Of a stretch of DNA of 64,000 nt, positions 32,953 through 63,865 are shown piece by piece. The position numbers and the translations under genes were made by a program. This stretch comes from a bacterium HR15 (GTDB lineage: Bacteria > Armatimonadota > Fimbriimonadia > Fimbriimonadales > GBS-DC): assembly GCA_002898555.1 (NCBI GenBank), contig BEHR01000001.1, forward strand, positions 62,001-126,000, given 5' to 3'. The notes below the pieces were generated by a model, which had not been told where the DNA came from, ran no database searches, and was given only the letters and a program-made list of their open reading frames with translations. How positions within the stretch are numbered: position 1 is the first letter of the stretch; each line of letters opens with the position of its first letter.

Positions 32953-32980
32953 CCCAGCTGGCTATCTACCCCTTTATGCT

Positions 32981-33090
32981 GGGAGGGCGAGCCTCCTGGC
33001 GAGCCGAAAAACTACCTTCAAATGGAGGGCGAGCCTCCTGGCGAGCCGAAAAAACGACCAACGGCTCGGCAGGTAGCCCCGCCCCCCAGT
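32981..33090. repeat. Cluster of three type A repeats
   Basis: Copies at 32981-33010 and 33023-33052 (same direction) and a third, inverted and diverged, at about 33060-33090 (ACGGCTCGGC onward). The first two share about 29 bases including GGCGAGCC. The second is identical over 30 bases to the copy inside metG. Confidence 0.85.
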
Positions 33091-33108
33091 GCAGGGTCTG
33101 CCTTGTGG

Positions 33109-34263
33109 CTACAGCCGATTGGCTGAGGAGCCTGCCTCGATTAGGTACCAGCGATCGCCCACGCGCTCGAAAGTGTAGGAGATATACACCACGCGCAGCG
33201 TGCCCGTTGCTTCGTCGATATAGCGATGTTCGCCTCTAATCACGAACTGGGTCTCGCCCCGCTTGGAAGTGCGGTAGAAGGTGAGCTGCTCGGTTTTTAC
33301 CGCCCGAATCGCGTCGCGCGTGATGGTGATGAAGTCCTCGGCAGGCAGCGAGTAGGCATACTTGCCTTCCAGATAGATGGCGATGTAGCTATTCGGACGG
33401 ATGTATCTTTCCAGTAGGCTTGGGTCGCGCAGAATCCAAGCGTGGCGCACATCGCTCAGCAGCTGCTGGCGGTCATCCACCACGGGCTGGCTCGGGCGCT
33501 CCAGGTAGTAGGGCGTCGCGATGTAAACAGGCACCTCCACATAGATCACACGCGGGGGTGGTAAGTAGATGATCCGATACACCGGGATAAAGGGCGGGCA
33601 GGGGTCATAGTACCAGTACGGTGCGTAGCAGACGCGATAAGGCTCCGGCGTGTAGCAGTAATAGCGGTAGCCAAAGTTGAAGTTGCCACCCCGATATTCG
33701 TAGTAAAACTCATAGCCCGAAGAGCGCGAGGGTGGGATAACAAAACGCTGCCAGCGACGCGGGTCCAGCCCTTCTGTGCGGTTGACCAGTGCGGGGAGGT
33801 TGCCCTCACTCAATGGCACGGGACGATTCAGCACGGGCTGCGGGTTATTCAGCACAGGGCGTGACTCGATGGGCAACGGCTGTGGGTTGTTCAGCACCAT
33901 GCCTGAATTGCCGGGAGTCTGGCGCGAATCGGACGGTTGGGCGTACGCACCGCCGTTATAATCGCGGGGCTGCTGCTCGCGGGGCTTTTTGCGGAACGGG
34001 TCATTCTCGGCTGGCGGTGCAGGGTTGTTCGAGGGTTGTGGAGCGTTGCCGCCATTCCGATTATCGATTGGGCGTGGCTTGTTGTCGCCGCCACCCTTAT
34101 AAAACGGCGAGGAGGGCTTGTTATCGTCCGCACTGCGCGATGGCGCAGGCTTATTGTCTCCCCGTTTGCCTTCCGTTTTATCAGCCAGTTTTTTCAGGTC
34201 GTCGGCTGCCGCAAGGCTCAGGGAGAGAGCCACAATGCTCAACAGGCTTAGCATCCGCATCAT
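33109..34263 (-). CDS. Exported Pro/Asn-rich protein with NTF2-like C-terminal domain
   Basis: 384 residues. The signal peptide (LLSIVALSLSLAAA) is followed by a low-complexity stretch of Asn, Pro, Lys and Ser to about residue 150, then a Tyr-rich segment (FYYEYRGGNFNFGYRYYCY), and a C-terminal domain of about 115 residues (LLSDVRHAWILRDPSLLERYI ... YTFERVGDRWYLIEAG) of NTF2-like look. The ATG is preceded by TATACT. Function unknown; exported, probably binds something at the surface. Confidence 0.65.
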   Translation of the reverse strand: MMRMLSLLSIVALSLSLAAADDLKKLADKTEGKRGDNKPAPSRSADDNKPSSPFYKGGGDNKPRPIDNRNGGNAPQPSNNPAPPAENDPFRKKPREQQPRDYNGGAYAQPSDSRQTPGNSGMVLNNPQPLPIESRPVLNNPQPVLNRPVPLSEGNLPALVNRTEGLDPRRWQRFVIPPSRSSGYEFYYEYRGGNFNFGYRYYCYTPEPYRVCYAPYWYYDPCPPFIPVYRIIYLPPPRVIYVEVPVYIATPYYLERPSQPVVDDRQQLLSDVRHAWILRDPSLLERYIRPNSYIAIYLEGKYAYSLPAEDFITITRDAIRAVKTEQLTFYRTSKRGETQFVIRGEHRYIDEATGTLRVVYISYTFERVGDRWYLIEAGSSANRL

Positions 34264-35272: not shown

Positions 35273-35686
35273 ATGGCAAGTCGTAAGCGGCAGGGGGCGG
35301 AACTTGAGACGCTGGAAACAACTATCGCCCAGTGGAAGCAAGCCGGCAAGCAAGTGGTGCTGACCGCAGCACGCTTCGAGACTCTGGACGAGACCTCGAT
35401 CGCTCTGTTGGAGCAGGCGCGTGCGTTGGGCGATGCGCTGATTGTCGTTCTCCATACGGAGCTACCCGATGGGCAGGTGAAAGCCGAGCAGATGCTCGCG
35501 CTGAAGTGTGCGGACGCTTTCACAGTGCTGCCAGAAGACGCGCTTGTGCCCCTGCTCCAACGCCTACAACCCCCTTACTATGTCCTACTCGGTGATTACA
35601 CTGAGCGCGACCTCCCTGCTGTGGAGGCGGTCATTGCCTACGGTGGTTTTGCGGTGGTGCTGCCGCGAGCACGCCCCGAATCCTAA
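35273..35686 (+). CDS. HldE/RfaE-C-like protein without the nucleotide-binding motif
   Basis: 137 residues. The look is that of the HldE/RfaE2 cytidylyltransferase domain: VVLTAARFETLDETSIALLEQARALGDALIVVLHT, and late LLGDYTERDLPAVEAVIAYGGFAVVLP. But where functional enzymes have HxGH after the first strand, this one has LDETS, and the ATP/CTP-binding residues are missing. Probably a pseudoenzyme or diverged relative; function unknown. Divergent to prmC; its end overlaps the convergent barrel gene by 4 bases. Confidence 0.6.
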   Translation: MASRKRQGAELETLETTIAQWKQAGKQVVLTAARFETLDETSIALLEQARALGDALIVVLHTELPDGQVKAEQMLALKCADAFTVLPEDALVPLLQRLQPPYYVLLGDYTERDLPAVEAVIAYGGFAVVLPRARPES

Positions 35687-37281
35687 TGCGTGCTCCCTAA
35701 CGGTGTGCTCCAACTGACCGCAAAGAGGCTCAGCCGATAGTCGAAACGCGAGTCGACACGGTCCAAATAGTGCCAGGGGGCGACTGTAATCGACCATGCG
35801 GAGCCATTCGGCAACAGATAGTGCAGCGAGAGTGTTAGGAACCGTCCTTCCGTGTTGCCATCGGGCAGCAGCAGCGGATTGTCCGTATCGCTGACAAAGT
35901 GCGTAAAGAGCAGACTCACCGAAAGGCGTGGTGCCGACGACCACTGCAATCCCACCATTGATGCACGCGTATCGGGCAGGAAGCGCGGCAACCCAATCAA
36001 CGCATCGGCGCTCTTGTTCGCTTGCCAGCGCTCGACACGATGCTCTGCGAGTACAGTTAGCCCTGAACGGAGTTGATAGACCCCACCGATAAGCAGCTGG
36101 TCGCTGTGCAACCGTGTGGCACGTGGGTCGTTCTGCCAACGCTGACGCGAGAGGGTCAGATAGAAAAAGCCGTTGGGGAATTGGCTGTCGAGGTTCAGGC
36201 GTGCTGTCTCGCGGCGACTCCAGAACAAGGTGGTGCTTGGTTCATTGGACACTTGTCGGCTCCAGCGCTGGCTTATCCCGTAGAGGGTAAGCCGTGTCTG
36301 ACGGCTCACTCGCCCTGAGAGGCGTGCCTCGATGCCCTCGCGCTGGATGGGTTCGCGCTGACGCTGCTCGGGGTCCCAACGGTCAATCGCTTGGCGTCGG
36401 ACGCCGATTTGCAGTTGCCACGCCCCAAATTGCTGCACGAGGCTGAGCGTGCCTGTGCGCCGCTCGCGTGTCCATGCGTTGCGCACGATGGGCAGGTTCA
36501 ACCGTTCGCGTGTCCAGCTCAGCCCGATGTCCGTCTTTGCGCCGGGTGTCCAATCAGTGAACAGAGTGAGGTTTTGAACGCGACTAACAGGGCGTTGCGG
36601 CTGCTCGAATCGGGCTTCGGACCAGACGGCTTCCAGGCTGAGCGCAGGCATCGGCTCCCACAGATAGCCCGTCTGCCAGCGCTGGAGCGTCAGGTCGGGG
36701 CGCGTGCCGGTTCGGTCCCGATAGCGCCAACGGGTATATTGCAGGCTAAGTCGTCCTGCCCCGATTGTCCCCTCGGCGGTGAGATCCCACGCTTGCGTGG
36801 TTTGATGATAAGGGGCGTGCATGCTTGCGAACTGGCGTCGCAGAGTGTCGCTGCGGAAACGCGCCGTCAGCGCGAAATCGGGCTTCACCAGATAGCGCAA
36901 GGTCACCTCCTCATTGCGCCGCGCACTAACTGGCGCGGAGGTGACGCCAGGGTCAGCAAATTGGGAACGGGATTGCTCTGCCTCTATAATGAGCTGCCCA
37001 GGCAGCCCGTGTAGGAGGGCGTCGCCGCGCGTGTCCTGGTCGCCACCCCCTTGCCATAGCAGGCGCATGGCGGGCAGCTCATAACGCAGCGCACGCAAAA
37101 AGAAGCCGCGCGGCGGTGTGGCGTATTGGCGGAACTTAGCCGCGTTGCCCCGCAAGCCCCAGTCTGACCATTCCAGACCAAGATGCGTCCGCGCCTGTAT
37201 CGGAGGAAGGGGCCGCTGAGCCTGAACCATCAGCAACCCCCACCCAAGCCATCCCAGAAGCCAGCGTGCGTTCTTCATCAT
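35683..37281 (-). CDS. Outer-membrane beta-barrel protein of a porin-cytochrome operon
   Basis: 532 residues. Signal peptide (LLGWLGWGLLMVQAQ), then many alternating 8-12-residue strands rich in Arg, Trp, Tyr and Leu (LSLQYTRWRYRDRTG, LEAVWSEARFEQ, NLTLFTDWTPG, LTLYGISQRWSR, FYLTLSRQRWQ) with Asp/Pro turns, typical of a transmembrane barrel. No Cys and no CxxC. The start at 37281 is followed by a second ATG at 37278; the frame runs on to 37506. It follows the decahaem cytochrome gene by 44 bases, as MtrB-like porins follow MtrA. Family identity is inference. Confidence 0.55.
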   Translation of the reverse strand: MMKNARWLLGWLGWGLLMVQAQRPLPPIQARTHLGLEWSDWGLRGNAAKFRQYATPPRGFFLRALRYELPAMRLLWQGGGDQDTRGDALLHGLPGQLIIEAEQSRSQFADPGVTSAPVSARRNEEVTLRYLVKPDFALTARFRSDTLRRQFASMHAPYHQTTQAWDLTAEGTIGAGRLSLQYTRWRYRDRTGTRPDLTLQRWQTGYLWEPMPALSLEAVWSEARFEQPQRPVSRVQNLTLFTDWTPGAKTDIGLSWTRERLNLPIVRNAWTRERRTGTLSLVQQFGAWQLQIGVRRQAIDRWDPEQRQREPIQREGIEARLSGRVSRQTRLTLYGISQRWSRQVSNEPSTTLFWSRRETARLNLDSQFPNGFFYLTLSRQRWQNDPRATRLHSDQLLIGGVYQLRSGLTVLAEHRVERWQANKSADALIGLPRFLPDTRASMVGLQWSSAPRLSVSLLFTHFVSDTDNPLLLPDGNTEGRFLTLSLHYLLPNGSAWSITVAPWHYLDRVDSRFDYRLSLFAVSWSTPLGSTH

Positions 37282-37325
37282 ATTTGCCCGTCGCTCTCGT
37301 CGAACCTGTCGCACATGGTAGCCCC

Positions 37326-38312
37326 TTAATGACTTAGAAACAGTGGGTCGCTGTTGGAGCCGTGGTGTGCCACATGGCAGCCGCTCTCCCAACAGTTGCG
37401 TGCGGGGTAGTGCTGCACGCCTTTCTCTGTGTGGCACTGTGCGCACAGCCCACGCGAGAAGAGCTTCAGCATGCGTGGGTTCGGCGAGCCGTGCGGACGA
37501 TGGCACTCCAAGCAGCTATCACCCATCCAGCCCGCAGCGGGGTCATGTTCAAAAACGAAAGGGCCCGTTTTGTCCGCATGGCAGTGGGTACACATCTCGC
37601 GGATAAGGCGCACCCGTTTGACACTCTCACGCGTGGGATGCACATCGTGGCAATCGGTGCAGAGGAGTCGTCCCTCGGGGAGCGGATGATGGAAATTCAG
37701 GCGGAACTCGCTTGCCTCACGCGCATGGCAGCGACTGCACATGGCGATCTCCTCATCTTTTAGCAGAGGATGCGACGGTGCCGTTGGGGACCAGGGCGCT
37801 TCCGCTGTTGATGAGAGGGGCGACGCCAAGCCGGTGGTCGCCCCTCTTGCCTTCTTTGCATTTTGATGAATCTGATGGCAACTAATGCAGCTTAGTCCCG
37901 CTTTGGCGTGTGCGGTGCGATGCCACTGGCTCGGTCGCATGGTTGCCCCATGGCAACGCATGCAGGCGCGCGACACCTCCTCGGGCTGAATCTTGCTGTA
38001 GCGGATGACCCCTTTCGGTTCCAGCACCTCGCGCAGGTGGATTGCACCCGGTCCATGGCATGCTTCGCACCCTTGGCGGTCAGGTGGGAGGTGGACATCG
38101 GTCATATAAGGTGCATGGGCGGAGTTGCGGAACGAAATGACTGAGGAGCGATGGCACGGTACACATGCCTGCTCGCCCAAAAAGTCGCTGGGCTTCGCTT
38201 CCGCAAACAGATTCAGCGGGAAGGCGTGTTCGCGGGCATGTTGCCGCGCTGCCGTCAGCATCAGCAGCCCCAGCCCCGCCATCGTTATCAGAAAAAGGCT
38301 CTTATCTCTCAT
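37326..38312 (-). CDS. Decahaem c-type cytochrome (MtrA/DmsE-like)
   Basis: 328 residues. After an N-terminal signal or anchor (LFLITMAGLGLLMLTAA), nine CXXCH motifs at residues 50, 82, 117, 142, 192, 218, 241, 267 and 290, plus a tenth as CWESGCH (CX4CH) at 307. CEACHGPGAIH and SCISCHQIH are typical of MtrA/DmsE-type cytochromes. Such proteins carry electrons through or to an outer-membrane barrel. Located between a haem lipoprotein gene (9 bases upstream) and a barrel gene (44 downstream), one apparent operon. Confidence 0.85.
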   Translation of the reverse strand: MRDKSLFLITMAGLGLLMLTAARQHAREHAFPLNLFAEAKPSDFLGEQACVPCHRSSVISFRNSAHAPYMTDVHLPPDRQGCEACHGPGAIHLREVLEPKGVIRYSKIQPEEVSRACMRCHGATMRPSQWHRTAHAKAGLSCISCHQIHQNAKKARGATTGLASPLSSTAEAPWSPTAPSHPLLKDEEIAMCSRCHAREASEFRLNFHHPLPEGRLLCTDCHDVHPTRESVKRVRLIREMCTHCHADKTGPFVFEHDPAAGWMGDSCLECHRPHGSPNPRMLKLFSRGLCAQCHTEKGVQHYPARNCWESGCHVAHHGSNSDPLFLSH

Positions 38313-38321
38313 TCACTTTCA

Positions 38322-40250
38322 CTAATTATTCCGTGCTCCTTGCTCGATCCAGAGCCGAATGAGTAGAATCTGTTCATCGGTGAGCCGTCCACCCAACGGC
38401 ATGCGTGAGCCAACGGGCGGATTATCCTCCGAGACCTTGCGATAGAGCAGGCTGCGCATGGGGTCGCCAGGCACCACACGAATCCAGTTAGGGTCCTGCA
38501 CACTGGGCACATTCACAATATTGGCATAGGCGTTGCCCGCGCTCAGGTCCAGGTCGGCAGTACGCGCCCGTGAATCGTGGCAACCCAGCACGGCACAGCG
38601 CTGGGTGAAGATTGGCTGGATAGTATGCTGGAAGCTGATAAGCACCTGCAAGTCGAGATTCACAGAGTGGCTCAAGCTGCCTGCCGTACCCTGAACGATG
38701 AGTGTGTAGCTGCCATGAGGAACCTGCGTGCCCACTTGCAAGGTGAGCAGACTCTCTTCTCCTGGTCGGATAGTGGATGGGTTGAAGCTCGCGCTCACCC
38801 CTGGCGGGAGGTTCATCGCGCTGAGGCTCACGGCGTCATTAAACCCGCCTACCGCGCTGATGGCAACCCGCACCGTGGTTGTTCCACCCTGCGCTACGCT
38901 GACGGATGATGGATTGAGCGCAATCAGAAAATCGGGCGGCACGCGCACCTCCAGCGTCAGACGCGCAGTGCGGGTAAAGCTCGCCGTACCTACCATAGTC
39001 AACTGATAAGTGCCTGGCACAGCTTGTGCTGTTGCTTGCAAGGTGAGCGTTGCACTGTTCTGTCCGGGCGCAAGGCTGCTGGGTGTGAACGATGCCGAGA
39101 CACCATTAGGCGCACCCTGTAGGCTCAGCGCCACGGTCTCGTTGAAGCCGCCGACGCGCGTAATGCGCACCGTCGCCCCAACGGAGCCACCCTGCTGCAC
39201 CACCAGGTTCGATGGCTCCACACTCAGCGAGAAGTCGGGCGTCTCGGTAATGCGCAAAGTGAGGTTCGCATTGCGGGTCAGCCCACCTCCTGTGCCATGA
39301 ATGGTCAGTGTGCTGACGCCGGGCGATGCACTTGCCCCCACCTGCAGCGTCAAAGCGGCGCTACTCTGATTGCCGGGGATAGTAGATGGGTTAAATGACG
39401 CGGAAACGCCCGTCGGCAGTCCCTCGATACCGAGCGTGACGGGTTGGGCAAAGTTGCCAATGCGCGTCAGTGTAATGGTGAGAGTGGTCTGACCGCCGGG
39501 GGTGAGCGTGATGTCGCTGCTGCTCAGAGTAAGCGTGAAATCGGGCGCGACCGTCACCGTTAGATTCAGCTGGGCGGTGCGCCGAATCGAGCCGCCTATG
39601 GCTACGACGGTCAGGGTGAAACTGCCCGTCGCGGCGCTTGCACTGGCATGCAGATTCAGCATGCTGGTGCTTTGCTGACCGCTGAGTGTGGTAGGAATGA
39701 ACTCCGCGGTGACGCCCGCCGGCGCACCCTCTAAACTGAGGTTGACCGCATCTTGAAAGTTGCCGATGCGTGTCAGTGACACTTGCAGGCTTGCGCTGCC
39801 GCCACGCACGACGCCGATACTGCCGAGACTCAGTTGGATGTTAAAATCGGGTGCCGCGATGCCGATGGTCAGTTGAATCTGGGCTTCTCGGGTGATCGAG
39901 CCGCCCTGCGCCCGCACAAGTAAAAAGTGGCTGCCTGTAGGTGTTTGCAACGAGGCGTGCAGCGTCAGCACAACACCCGTCTGGTCAGACGGCACGGGGT
40001 TCGGGCTGAAACTTGCCTCCACGCCCTCCGGTAATCCCTCGATGGACAGCTGCACGGGCGCGGTGAAATTGCCCACCCGCTCGATGCTCATGGTCAGCGT
40101 TGCCTGCCCGCCCTGGGCAACCGTAATGGCAGGATTGCGTACCGAGAGGAAAAAGTGCGCCCCTGTCGCTGGCGCACGCCCCCCACCACATCGTGCCAGC
40201 AACAGCAAGGTGAGCATGGGCAAAATCAGCGCACCGTACGCTCGCCCCAT
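38322..40250 (-). CDS. Lipoprotein with five Ig-like repeats and a terminal cytochrome c domain
   Basis: 642 residues from the ATG at 40250 (AGGGCGATA upstream). Candidate lipobox LLARC near residue 20 (Arg at -1 is unusual). Then five repeats of about 95 residues, each with xGGxxTLxxxxxRxGNF and LxGxPxGVxASFxP, giving a stalk. The C-terminal ~105 residues resemble a mono-haem cytochrome domain: IQPIFTQRCAVLGCH (CX4CH), LDLSAGNAYANIVNVPS, RVVPGDPMRSLLYRKV, WIEQGARN. Likely faces outward. First gene of an operon with the decahaem cytochrome and barrel. Confidence 0.75.
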   Translation of the reverse strand: MGRAYGALILPMLTLLLLARCGGGRAPATGAHFFLSVRNPAITVAQGGQATLTMSIERVGNFTAPVQLSIEGLPEGVEASFSPNPVPSDQTGVVLTLHASLQTPTGSHFLLVRAQGGSITREAQIQLTIGIAAPDFNIQLSLGSIGVVRGGSASLQVSLTRIGNFQDAVNLSLEGAPAGVTAEFIPTTLSGQQSTSMLNLHASASAATGSFTLTVVAIGGSIRRTAQLNLTVTVAPDFTLTLSSSDITLTPGGQTTLTITLTRIGNFAQPVTLGIEGLPTGVSASFNPSTIPGNQSSAALTLQVGASASPGVSTLTIHGTGGGLTRNANLTLRITETPDFSLSVEPSNLVVQQGGSVGATVRITRVGGFNETVALSLQGAPNGVSASFTPSSLAPGQNSATLTLQATAQAVPGTYQLTMVGTASFTRTARLTLEVRVPPDFLIALNPSSVSVAQGGTTTVRVAISAVGGFNDAVSLSAMNLPPGVSASFNPSTIRPGEESLLTLQVGTQVPHGSYTLIVQGTAGSLSHSVNLDLQVLISFQHTIQPIFTQRCAVLGCHDSRARTADLDLSAGNAYANIVNVPSVQDPNWIRVVPGDPMRSLLYRKVSEDNPPVGSRMPLGGRLTDEQILLIRLWIEQGARNN

Positions 40251-40346
40251 CCGCCTATCGCCCTGAGCCGCTATGCATTTAGAGCGCCAAATCATTCCCT
40301 ACCCCTTTGCTTGAACGAAGCAGTTCGATGCAGGTTCCCTTGCAGG

Positions 40347-59594: not shown

Positions 59595-61364
59595 ATGGCA
59601 ATGACACGCAAGAGCCTGGGTGAGTACCTCATAGAGAAGGGACTTATCACCCATGAGCAATTGGAAGATGCGATGCGTGTGCAGCAGGCGACGGGCAAAG
59701 ACCTAGCGCAGATTTTGGTGGACCAGGCAGTGGTCAGCGAGCGGGATGCCTACGAGGCGAAAGCCTATGAGCTGGGTATGCCCTTCGTTGACCTCGATCG
59801 CACCACGCCCGACCCCTCTGCCGTGAATGTGGTGAAGGAACATATCGCAAAGAGATATAATGTGATGCCCGTCAAAAAAGAGGGCAACATCCTCTATTTG
59901 GCGATGGCGGACCCAAACAATGTGATGGCGATTGACGATGTGCGGGTCAACTCGCGCTGTGTGGTGCGTCCTGTGCTGGCGGCGCCCGGCGCGATTGAGG
60001 ATGCGATTCGGCGTGCTTATGGCGGGTCGGCTATCGCGGGCGACGGCAGTGCCACCGCGGCGGGGGAAGGTGGCGGAACACCTGCTCGCCCAGCAGATCT
60101 GAAAGCCTCGGTAATGTCGGAAGTCGCCGCCTACAGCGCACGGGGCGACCTCGAAGAGGACGAGAAAGCCGTACTGCGCGAGGCAGAAGAGGGTCCTATC
60201 GTGCGCGCCGCCAACATCATCATTCAGCGCGCCATCGACGAACGCGCCAGCGATATCCATGTGGAACCCCAAATCCGCAATGTGCGCATCCGCTACCGAA
60301 TCGACGGCGTGCTACACGAGGTGCTCACCCTGCCCAAGTATATCCAAGCCCCCCTCATCTCCCGCTACAAGATTATGGCGGAGATGAACATCGCTGAGAA
60401 GCGACTACCGCAAGACGGACGTATCCCCATCCGCTACCAGAACAAAGATTACGACCTGCGTGTCTCCTCGATCCCCACACCCCTGGGCGAGAAAATTGTA
60501 ATGCGCATTCTGGACAAGACCAGCGTGCTGATTGGACTGAACAAACTCGGCTTCACCCCTGAAACGCAGGCGCGACTGGAAGAGCTGGTCATCCAGCCGC
60601 AGGGCATGGTGCTTTCCACGGGTCCCACCGGCTCTGGCAAGACCACCACGCAATACTCGATCCTGCACAAGCTGAACTCGGTGGAGAAGAACATCCTCAC
60701 TATTGAGGACCCCATTGAGTATCAGCTGCCGGGCATCAGTCAGGTGCAGGTGAACCGCAAGGCGGGTCTGACCTTCGCGAACGCGCTGCGCGCCTTCCTG
60801 CGTCAGGACCCTGACATTATCATGGTGGGCGAGATGCGCGACCTGGAGACCGCCGAAATCGCAATTGAAGCCGCCTTGACAGGACACCTGGTGCTGTCCA
60901 CCCTGCACACGAACGATGCGCCCTCCGCGGTGATCCGAATGATCGATATGGGCGTGGAACCTTATCTGATCTCGGCGACCGTCACGGGCGTGCTGGCACA
61001 ACGATTGGCGCGGCGCGTCTGTCAGAAGTGCAAGCAACCGCGCGAGATCCGGGCTGCCGATTTGCGTGCCTTCGGATTCCAGGTGGAAGACCCCGACCAA
61101 GTCGTCACCATCTGGGAAGGCACCGGCTGTGAGGAGTGCCGCTATCGCGGCTACAAGGGGCGTATCGGTATCTTCGAATTGATGGTGGTGAACGCCGAGA
61201 TCGCGGAGCTGATTGTGCGTCGCGCCCCACTTGCCGACATCAAGGAAGCCGCCAAAGCGAACGGCATGAAGGAGTTGCGCGAGGACGGACTGATCAAGGT
61301 GCTGGAAGGCGTCACCACACCTGACGAAGTACGCCGCGTGGTGTTCACTGCCGGCTACTACTAA
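59595..61364 (+). CDS. pilB: Type IV pilus assembly ATPase PilB (GspE family)
   Basis: 589 residues. N-terminal MshEN domain (RKSLGEYLIEKGLITHEQLEDAM), Walker A STGPTGSGKTTTQYSI, Asp box GEMRDLETAEIAIEAALTGHLVLSTLHTND, and a zinc site with Cys in CQKCKQPRE and CEECRYRG. Powers pilus assembly. RBS GGGAG upstream. First of pilB-pilT-pilC-pilD. Confidence 0.96.
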   Translation: MAMTRKSLGEYLIEKGLITHEQLEDAMRVQQATGKDLAQILVDQAVVSERDAYEAKAYELGMPFVDLDRTTPDPSAVNVVKEHIAKRYNVMPVKKEGNILYLAMADPNNVMAIDDVRVNSRCVVRPVLAAPGAIEDAIRRAYGGSAIAGDGSATAAGEGGGTPARPADLKASVMSEVAAYSARGDLEEDEKAVLREAEEGPIVRAANIIIQRAIDERASDIHVEPQIRNVRIRYRIDGVLHEVLTLPKYIQAPLISRYKIMAEMNIAEKRLPQDGRIPIRYQNKDYDLRVSSIPTPLGEKIVMRILDKTSVLIGLNKLGFTPETQARLEELVIQPQGMVLSTGPTGSGKTTTQYSILHKLNSVEKNILTIEDPIEYQLPGISQVQVNRKAGLTFANALRAFLRQDPDIIMVGEMRDLETAEIAIEAALTGHLVLSTLHTNDAPSAVIRMIDMGVEPYLISATVTGVLAQRLARRVCQKCKQPREIRAADLRAFGFQVEDPDQVVTIWEGTGCEECRYRGYKGRIGIFELMVVNAEIAELIVRRAPLADIKEAAKANGMKELREDGLIKVLEGVTTPDEVRRVVFTAGYY

Positions 61365-61403
61365 ACCTGAAACAAAACCCAACGCAAGGAGGTCTCAAAA
61401 AGC

Positions 61404-62612
61404 ATGTATATGCCGAACTCGACAACGAATGATCCGCCTGCCGCAGGCACGGGTACCGTGCCCGCGGCACAGCCAGCGCCCGCTATGGGTCAAGCGCGCT
61501 CGCTGGAGGATATTCATATCGATGAGCTGCTCTATATCGTGGTGGAGAAGGGCGCATCCGACCTGCATCTGTGCCCCTTCGTGGAGCCAGTTATCCGTGT
61601 GGACGGGCAGCTGATGCGTCTTAACTTCGAAAAAGCCAGCCCCAGCGAGACCCAGCGGCTTATCTACGATATTCTGACCGATGAGCAAATACAGCGGTTC
61701 GAAACAACCTATGAGCTGGACTTTTCCTACAGCCTGCATAAGGTGGCGCGTTTCCGCGTGAATGTCTACAAAGACAAGGGCGCGGTCGCAGCTGCGTTCC
61801 GCTTGATCCCCGCGCGCGTGCCCACCGTTCGCGAACTGAACCTACCTCCTGTGCTGGAGGAACTCACACGCCGTCCGCGCGGGCTAATCCTGGTGACGGG
61901 CCCCACTGGCTCCGGCAAGTCCACGACGCTGGCAGCGATGGTGAACCAAATCAACAGTGAGCGCAGCTGCCATATCATCACCATCGAAGACCCTATCGAG
62001 TATCTGCATACCCACAAGTTCAGCATCATTAATCAGCGCGAGTTGGGGCAGGACACTAAATCGTTCGCGGCGGCGCTTCGCTCGGCTCTGCGCGAGGACC
62101 CCGATGTGATTCTGGTGGGCGAGATGCGCGACCTGGAGACTATCCAGCTCGCTATCACCGCTGCCGAAACAGGACACCTTGTGTTCGCTACCCTCCACAC
62201 CAACAACGCTGCCGAATCGGTGGACCGTATCGTCGATGTATTTCCCCCCGGGCAGCAGGAGCAGATTCGCATTCAATTGGCGAATAACCTGCAGGCGATT
62301 ATCAGCCAGCAGCTGTTGCCGCGTGCTGGTCAGCCTGGGCGCGTGCCCGCCGTGGAAGTGATGATTGCCACACCCGCTATCCGCAACCTCATCCGCGAGA
62401 ACAAGACCCACCAGATCCACACGATGATCCAGACCAGCGGTCAGCTGGGCATGCAGACGATGGATCAGTCGCTGCGCGACCTCTACCTCAAGGGCTGGAT
62501 TACTTATGAGGAGGCGATGGCGCGGGCGATTAACCCAGACGAGTTACGCAAGATGATTGCGCCCACCGGAGGGGTGCCGGGCGCACCGGCAGCACCCAGC
62601 CGAGGGCGATAG
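61404..62612 (+). CDS. pilT: Type IV pilus retraction ATPase PilT
   Basis: 402 residues. Walker A VTGPTGSGKSTTLAAM, Asp box EDPIEYLHTHKFSIINQRELGQDT, GEMRDLETIQLAITAAETGHLVFATLHTNN, and AIRNLIRENKTHQI (the AIRNLIRE retraction motif). An N-terminal Pro/Ala-rich stretch is longer than usual. RBS AAGGAGGTC. Follows pilB by 39 bases. Confidence 0.96.
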   Translation: MYMPNSTTNDPPAAGTGTVPAAQPAPAMGQARSLEDIHIDELLYIVVEKGASDLHLCPFVEPVIRVDGQLMRLNFEKASPSETQRLIYDILTDEQIQRFETTYELDFSYSLHKVARFRVNVYKDKGAVAAAFRLIPARVPTVRELNLPPVLEELTRRPRGLILVTGPTGSGKSTTLAAMVNQINSERSCHIITIEDPIEYLHTHKFSIINQRELGQDTKSFAAALRSALREDPDVILVGEMRDLETIQLAITAAETGHLVFATLHTNNAAESVDRIVDVFPPGQQEQIRIQLANNLQAIISQQLLPRAGQPGRVPAVEVMIATPAIRNLIRENKTHQIHTMIQTSGQLGMQTMDQSLRDLYLKGWITYEEAMARAINPDELRKMIAPTGGVPGAPAAPSRGR

Positions 62613-62641
62613 CTCGCTGTCCCAGATAGGAGGCGAAAAGC

Positions 62642-63865
62642 ATGCCGTTCTTTAACTACACTATTCGGGATCAGTCGGGAGCCACCCGTTCAGGGAAGGC
62701 GGAAGCTGAGAACGCGGAGGTGCTGCGCAAACGCCTACAGGAGGAAGGCTTTCAGGTCATCGAGATTTCGATGGATCGCGCGGCGCCCCGCGTGCCCGCA
62801 GGCGGCTACGGGCGTGTAAGGCTGAGCGACCTCGCCATCTTTGCCCGCCAGTTCTCCACGATGCTGGATGCGGGCGTCTCGCTTGTGCGCTGTCTCGATG
62901 TGCTGCAGCAGCAGACGAGCAACGCACGCCTGCGCCGCATCCTGATGGACCTATCCACGCGCGTCGAATCGGGCGAGAGCCTCTCCCGAGCGATGTCGCG
63001 CCATCCCAAAGCGTTTAGCCAGCTCATTATCGGTCTGATTCGCGCGGGGGAGGTCGGCGGCGTATTGGAGGAATCGCTCCAACGCATCGCCCTCTTCCTG
63101 GAAAAGGATGTGGAGTTGCGACGCAAGATTCGCTCCGCGCTGACCTATCCCGTTATCGTCCTGCTGGCAGCAACGGGCATCGTCATCTTCCTGGTGTCGT
63201 GGCTGGTGCCCCAGTTCGCCAGCCTGTTCCGTGACCTGGGCATCAAGGAGCTGCCCGCCCCCACTCAGTTCCTTGTGGACCTCAGCGGGTTCATTACCCA
63301 GAAGTGGTACATCATTATTATCTCGGTGGTGGCGATCCTCATCGCCTATAAGCTCTTTGTCAGCACGCGGGTGGGGCGGCGCGTCGCTGATCGCGTAAAG
63401 CTGCGAGTGCCCGTCTTCGGCAAGCTGCACCATAAGATCGTGATGGCGCGCTTCAGTCGCACGATGGGAACCCTCCTCGCCTCAGGCGTGCCCATCCTGC
63501 AGGCGATGGAGACGGTGGCGGGTGTCGTGGGCAACGCTATCGTGGCGGATGCCGTGCTGGAATCGCGTGCCCGCATCCGCGAAGGCGAAAAAATCGCCGA
63601 CCCGCTCCAGAAAAGCAAGATGTTTCCGCCAATGGTGGTGCATATGGTTAGCGTCGGGGAGGAATCGGGCTCGCTCGACCATATGCTCAACAAAATCGCT
63701 GACTTCTACGAAAACGAGGTGGAGACCGCCATCGCCAGCCTGACCGCCGCGATTGAGCCAGTCATGATCGTGATTCTGGGCTTCATCGTCGGCTTCATCG
63801 TGATTTCGATGTTCCTGCCGATGATCGAGGTCATCTCGAACCTCAGCCAGAGCGGCGGCGAGTAG
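62642..63865 (+). CDS. pilC: Type IV pilus inner-membrane platform PilC (GspF family)
   Basis: 407 residues. FNYTIRDQSGATRSGKAEAEN start; two GspF domains with three membrane helices (YPVIVLLAATGIVIFLVSWLVP; IIIISVVAILIAYK; VMIVILGFIVGFIVISMFLP). RBS AGGAGGCG. Complete. Confidence 0.96.
   Translation: MPFFNYTIRDQSGATRSGKAEAENAEVLRKRLQEEGFQVIEISMDRAAPRVPAGGYGRVRLSDLAIFARQFSTMLDAGVSLVRCLDVLQQQTSNARLRRILMDLSTRVESGESLSRAMSRHPKAFSQLIIGLIRAGEVGGVLEESLQRIALFLEKDVELRRKIRSALTYPVIVLLAATGIVIFLVSWLVPQFASLFRDLGIKELPAPTQFLVDLSGFITQKWYIIIISVVAILIAYKLFVSTRVGRRVADRVKLRVPVFGKLHHKIVMARFSRTMGTLLASGVPILQAMETVAGVVGNAIVADAVLESRARIREGEKIADPLQKSKMFPPMVVHMVSVGEESGSLDHMLNKIADFYENEVETAIASLTAAIEPVMIVILGFIVGFIVISMFLPMIEVISNLSQSGGE

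Follow-up and report, generated by a model that had tools for sequence, protein, structure and literature searches.

Can an electron conduit across the outer membrane end in a single haem? The question is raised by a three-gene locus of the uncultured Armatimonadota bacterium HR15 (assembly GCA_002898555.1), which lies in a 64,000-nucleotide (nt) stretch of contig BEHR01000001.1 (positions 62,001 to 126,000), referred to here as the window. The genes encode a protein with an immunoglobulin (Ig)-like stalk and a terminal monohaem domain, a decahaem cytochrome and a beta-barrel. The most likely explanation is a conduit of the MtrAB/PioAB type in which the outer cytochrome has been replaced. The proposal as a whole, with the decahaem cytochrome as a wire inside the barrel, an octahaem cytochrome lost and the stalked monohaem protein acting as outer exchange partner, is given a probability of about 0.58. 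Its core, the decahaem-barrel conduit in the outer membrane put forward in an earlier note on this DNA, is well supported, because the barrel is MtrB-like by fold and by profile and the order of the decahaem and barrel genes is conserved.

The decahaem cytochrome and its barrel

The three open reading frames (ORFs) lie on the minus strand at the positions noted before (Table 1), with gaps of 9 nt between the stalked and decahaem genes and 44 nt between the decahaem and barrel genes. The neighbouring gene on the barrel side (35273-35686) is on the opposite strand and the upstream neighbour (40360) is divergent; the stalked, decahaem and barrel genes therefore form a three-gene unit, as tightly packed on one strand as the earlier note had described. 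A promoter and terminator scan gave no useful signal. Chance or a frame artefact was ruled out as the source of the locus, which is conserved across 60 loci; support far beyond chance comes from the match of the decahaem cytochrome to the MtrA chain of 6R2Q (1.4e-30) and from the decahaem-barrel order, shared by 59 of the 60 close barrel loci in Armatimonadota.

The decahaem cytochrome contains nine CXXCH sites and a tenth site of the form CX4CH. The ten sites, together with 11 additional histidines, were invariant in 12 Armatimonadota homologues, which would be enough for bis-histidine ligation of ten haems. The phmmer match to MtrA (6r2q_A, named cystathionine beta-synthase in the PDB copy, evidently a wrong label) consisted of two long blocks covering most of the length. 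Profile scores fell below the cut-offs: 181.1 bits for TIGR03508 (DmsE family), just under the 192.2 required and exceeded by one Armatimonadota relative with 191.0, and 188.4 bits for NF041028 (cut-off 325). The MtrA-like assignment of the earlier note was confirmed by the ten sites and the MtrA match, with the tenth site refined to CX4CH. Since atypical haem motifs were unknown in Mtr or periplasmic Pcc cytochromes when these were surveyed by Shi et al. in 2014 (PMC4245776), CX4CH at haem 10 is a mark of the Armatimonadota decahaem clade.

The barrel contains no cysteine, as had been noted, and its AlphaFold 2 (AF2) model, built from 38 aligned sequences, has 26 strands (mean predicted local distance difference test score (pLDDT) 89.1, predicted template-modelling (TM) score (pTM) 0.81). 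In a Foldseek search of the PDB, MtrB (6r2q_B) had the best TM-score among the matches listed (TMq 0.70 / TMt 0.59); the other barrels among these matches reached at most 0.54, and by E-value MtrB was second. Alignment by hhalign to A5, an alignment of 12 barrels associated with decahaem cytochromes, one of them a Shewanella MtrB (PF11854, 7e-189), gave a probability of 99.0 and an E-value of 5.8e-18 over 511 columns, a type of match that can arise between beta-barrels in general. PF11854 (MtrB_PioB) matched neither the barrel (P0001) nor any of its 38 aligned homologues; the barrel sequence alone retrieved nothing from Pfam or by phmmer, and its profile retrieved only general porins from the PDB sequences. 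PioB and MtoB have also been modelled as 26-strand barrels (PMC10654088).

Table 1 Features of the proposed conduit locus, with window coordinates and the evidence for each
Feature	Coordinates	Strand	Evidence
Stalked monohaem protein, 657 aa (alternative start at second ATG, 40250)	38322..40295	-	ORF, repeat alignment, AF2
Five Ig-like repeats, residues 47-548	38652..40157	-	Alignment, AF2, Foldseek
PSCyt1-like monohaem head, residues 549-657	38325..38651	-	Alignment with PSCyt1-type domains of relatives
Haem site of head, CX4CH (CAVLGCH)	38577..38597	-	Sequence; homologues have CXXCH here
Candidate axial Met of head, M632 of conserved Met-Pro	38400..38402	-	Conservation; role inferred from class I cytochromes c
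Decahaem c-type cytochrome, MtrA/DmsE-like, 328 aa	37326..38312	-	Haem motifs, MtrA homology, family profiles
Predicted 26-strand outer-membrane beta-barrel, MtrB-like, 532 aa, no Cys	35683..37281	-	AF2, Foldseek, hhalign

The conserved pair and its distal partners in Armatimonadota

Decahaem and barrel genes form a pair that is conserved in Armatimonadota. Among 291 Armatimonadota genomes, 73 had a barrel hit; within the window's family, the other 17 genomes had none. The relatives' contigs match those of named Armatimonadota metagenome-assembled genomes (MAGs), including Fimbriimonadaceae and Chthonomonadales. A decahaem gene lay directly upstream of the barrel in 59 of the 60 close loci, and an octahaem cytochrome gene lay 3' of it in 53 (52 identified by script and L019 by hand). 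The other seven comprise two loci cut by contig ends, the window, and four of family f13 (L174, the first copy in L176, L179 and L209). The earlier note had suggested a search for the three-gene order in related genomes; the decahaem-barrel part of that order was kept and the whole was not, the relatives having an octahaem cytochrome instead of the stalked protein. Within Mtr clusters, MtrAB has been described as conserved and MtrC as variable (Baker et al. 2022, PMC8805035).

In relatives, genes for CcmF and a small monohaem cytochrome often extend the cluster, and NapC/NirT and cytochrome b561 proteins are sometimes encoded there too. In divergent conduits, the place of the octahaem cytochrome was taken either by a hexahaem cytochrome, as at L226 and L233, or by a lipoprotein of the EB_dh family (PF09459) that has few haem motifs, as at L222:3273-4517 and L232:3956-5212, and the distal module of Armatimonadota conduits therefore seems to be exchangeable.

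Almost every Armatimonadota relative has the octahaem outer cytochrome 3' of the barrel; the window's lineage lacks it. None was found elsewhere in the window's genome, and a hidden copy was rejected within the limits of this 98.3%-complete assembly; the absence of a multihaem partner of the OmcA/MtrC type, as claimed earlier, was borne out in that the only further haem protein of the cluster is monohaem. No other doubled-CXXCH protein was found in this genome. Proteins with four and five haems are encoded on contigs C6 and C14, and a pentahaem cytochrome on contig C19 (L236:5208-6191), unlinked to the conduit here, is 55% identical to the conduit-adjacent pentahaem cytochrome in three of three f17 genomes. 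Genes for alternative complex III and a caa3-type oxidase are present, as are those of System I cytochrome c maturation (CcmF, CcmE and CcmC-like).

The window grouped with two f12 genomes in the decahaem tree (support 95) and with f17 and f19 in the barrel tree (support 95). In neither tree did it group with its own order, and the two disagree on the sister group. Either acquisition from a different Armatimonadota lineage or ancient retention would fit, with rapid change once the octahaem cytochrome was lost.

Some loci of relatives were unusual in other ways. The close barrel homologue at L209:3544-5208 (G100) has no adjacent decahaem gene, and L176:1581-8276 (G101) holds decahaem-barrel pairs in tandem, separated by a small monohaem gene, with an octahaem gene only at the second pair. 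Downstream of one decahaem-barrel-octahaem cluster, at a distance of a few genes, L061:16532-18445 encodes a protein with 28 CXXCH motifs. The contig L041 (JADZEW010000016.1), titled as a Methanoregulaceae archaeon, carries an Armatimonadota cluster very like that of the Fimbriimonadaceae contig L042 and is probably mislabelled or from a mixed bin.

The stalked monohaem protein and its possible roles

The stalked protein contains five Ig-like repeats, each about 100 residues long, which were aligned, and its AF2 model (mean pLDDT 81.9) consists of five beta domains and a helical C-terminal domain, the latter of low confidence, as would be expected in the absence of haem. Foldseek matched the stalk to Ig chains of titin, contactin and cadherin, and only Ig chains were among the best matches of the whole protein. 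In the head, C567, C572, H573, M632, P633 and W649 are conserved, and the pattern of C..CH, Met-Pro and a C-terminal WI..GA is present in an alignment of 22 domains. PF07635 reached only an E-value of 0.16 on the head, below the cut-off, and a weak match to FoxE (6.8e-4) is a lead and not evidence of iron oxidation. The five-repeat stalk and terminal haem domain described in the earlier note were thus recovered, the haem site being one CX4CH and not CXXCH. Its designation as a lipoprotein stood in part: the end of the signal sequence reads LLARC-GGG, which makes LARC a non-canonical lipobox. The corresponding sequence of an Ig-repeat relative in G038 is ALGC.

In the proposed conduit, the decahaem cytochrome inside the 26-strand barrel would form a wire of the MtrAB/PioAB type across the outer membrane, as homology, fold and conserved gene pairing suggest. 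The stalked protein, probably encoded on the same transcript given the 9-nt gap, would stand in place of the octahaem cytochrome as exchange partner. We infer that its monohaem head is the surface partner; most likely anchored at the outer membrane, the head would carry electrons one at a time between the outer mouth of the wire and a redox partner, soluble or particulate, at distances of up to roughly 20 nm. At its inner end the wire may be joined to the respiratory chain of alternative complex III and caa3-type oxidase, with the C19 pentahaem cytochrome as a possible link. A more specific picture, of a single-haem outer terminal on a flexible Ig stalk of about 20 nm that works as a tethered one-electron swing arm to extracellular redox partners, as one member of a family of Armatimonadota conduits whose distal modules can be exchanged, is offered tentatively and with less than even confidence. 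Of the known systems, MtrCAB works mostly in the reductive direction, PioAB in the oxidative one. For most organisms in the Mtr survey of Baker et al., the direction of electrons cannot be inferred (PMC8805035).

Several observations weigh against the proposal. The arginine at position -1 fails the canonical lipobox [LVI][ASTVI][GAS]C, so that lipidation is plausible rather than established. No second stalked monohaem protein was found beside another conduit, relatives yielded no ortholog, no other decahaem cytochrome had a PSCyt1-like head next to it, and the link of the stalked protein to its conduit therefore comes from one genome. No quinol dehydrogenase of the NapC/CymA type (NapC/NirT) scored above cut-off in the window's genome. 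The window's branch in the barrel tree is long (1.34 compared with a median of 0.40), which could reflect relaxed constraint. To our knowledge, there is no case of a head on a flexible stalk docking on MtrAB.

In a different arrangement, the decahaem-barrel pair alone would reach the surface, as in PioAB, and the stalk would span the periplasm so that the head links the respiratory chain to the inner end of the wire. Five Ig domains of about 4 nm each come close to the width of the periplasm, the genome shows no NapC/CymA-type donor above cut-off, and small monohaem cytochromes adjoin the conduit in relatives; these, however, are short and unlike the stalked protein in layout, and stalked lipoproteins are often surface-exposed. 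A periplasmic head is the main rival because PioAB works without an extracellular cytochrome (PMC6831781) and MtrAB conducts without MtrC (PMC4245776), and we regard it as rather unlikely.

Less probable again is that the stalked protein is a bystander, for example an adhesin or a redox-domain sensor, beside a conduit that is PioAB-like or uses the unlinked C19 pentahaem cytochrome. Its lack of counterparts beside other conduits would agree with this, as would the conduit linkage of the pentahaem ortholog in f17 genomes, but the shared strand and the short gap argue for a common unit, and a gene that lay next to a haem operon by chance would hardly be expected to encode a haem domain. That the barrel is a substrate porin or other transporter, and the decahaem protein a free periplasmic cytochrome, is very improbable. 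The missing MtrB_PioB match and the Foldseek E-values, which place siderophore receptors close, are outweighed by a TM-score for MtrB that is by far the best, the 26 strands, the profile match to the MtrB-containing alignment and the pairing with a decahaem gene in 59 of 60 loci; the TM-score of 0.70 and the hhalign probability of 99.0 likewise speak against a porin or secretin unrelated to MtrB, the outcome that the earlier note had set against its own proposal.

Known conduits and the place of the HR15 locus

The locus shares with MtrCAB of Shewanella (6R2Q), a system of iron respiration, adjacent genes for an MtrA-like decahaem cytochrome and a 26-strand MtrB-like barrel. It differs in having no decahaem MtrC/OmcA and, instead, an Ig-stalked monohaem protein encoded upstream, in the CX4CH at haem 10, and in a shorter barrel (532 aa) without a PF11854 match. 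A decahaem cytochrome and barrel without a multihaem extracellular cytochrome are also found in PioAB of Rhodopseudomonas and MtoAB of Sideroxydans (PMC6831781, PMC10654088); unlike these, the window has no PioC, an extra haem protein in the operon and a decahaem cytochrome lacking the long N-terminal extension. Compared with the decahaem-barrel-octahaem cluster of other Armatimonadota, the decahaem and barrel genes are orthologous, in the same order and with the same CX4CH at haem 10, whereas the octahaem lipoprotein and the adjacent CcmF or small monohaem gene are absent and the stalked monohaem protein is present. The Pcc system of Geobacter (OmbB-OmaB-OmcB) is alike in its working, with a barrel, an inner multihaem cytochrome and a strongly varying outer partner, but its inner cytochrome is of the 8-haem OmaB type and not an MtrA/DmsE-type decahaem. 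PSCyt1-type domains have C-x(2/4)-CH, Met-Pro and WI..GA in common with the window's head, which differs in its CX4CH, its fusion to an Ig stalk and its sub-threshold PF07635 score.

No report of a conserved Armatimonadota conduit or of a stalked monohaem partner was found in the open-access literature searched, and text searches of the Mtr survey (PMC8805035), PMC4245776 and PMC10654088 returned no mention of Armatimonadota. The earlier statement that no such system was described in this kind of organism was nearly right: work on the Katase hot spring reported an MtoA/MtrA homologue in one Armatimonadota MAG, with no barrel or partner described in the text consulted (PMC9671151). In a study of hot-spring mats, another Armatimonadota MAG was reported to encode multihaem cytochromes and a candidate octahaem nitrite reductase (PMC11788075), and these genes possibly belong to the same cluster as the Armatimonadota conduit.

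If the proposal holds, MtrAB-type conduits would extend across a phylum in which they have hardly been described, with the barrel in about a quarter of the genomes searched. The same decahaem-barrel core with a swapped outer module (octahaem, hexahaem, EB_dh lipoprotein or stalked monohaem) would be a natural experiment, and the swaps would make the minimum haem number for a surface outlet testable. Electron exchange of hot-spring and lake Armatimonadota with minerals or partners would likewise become testable.

Elsewhere, short GC-rich repeats were seen at 32976-33239 of the window and at L029:1080-1320, one frame of which is GGRASWRAEK-like; they recur in the genome's intergenic DNA. Genes at 59595-63865 of the window read like those for the PilB, PilT and PilC proteins of type IV pilus / type II secretion.

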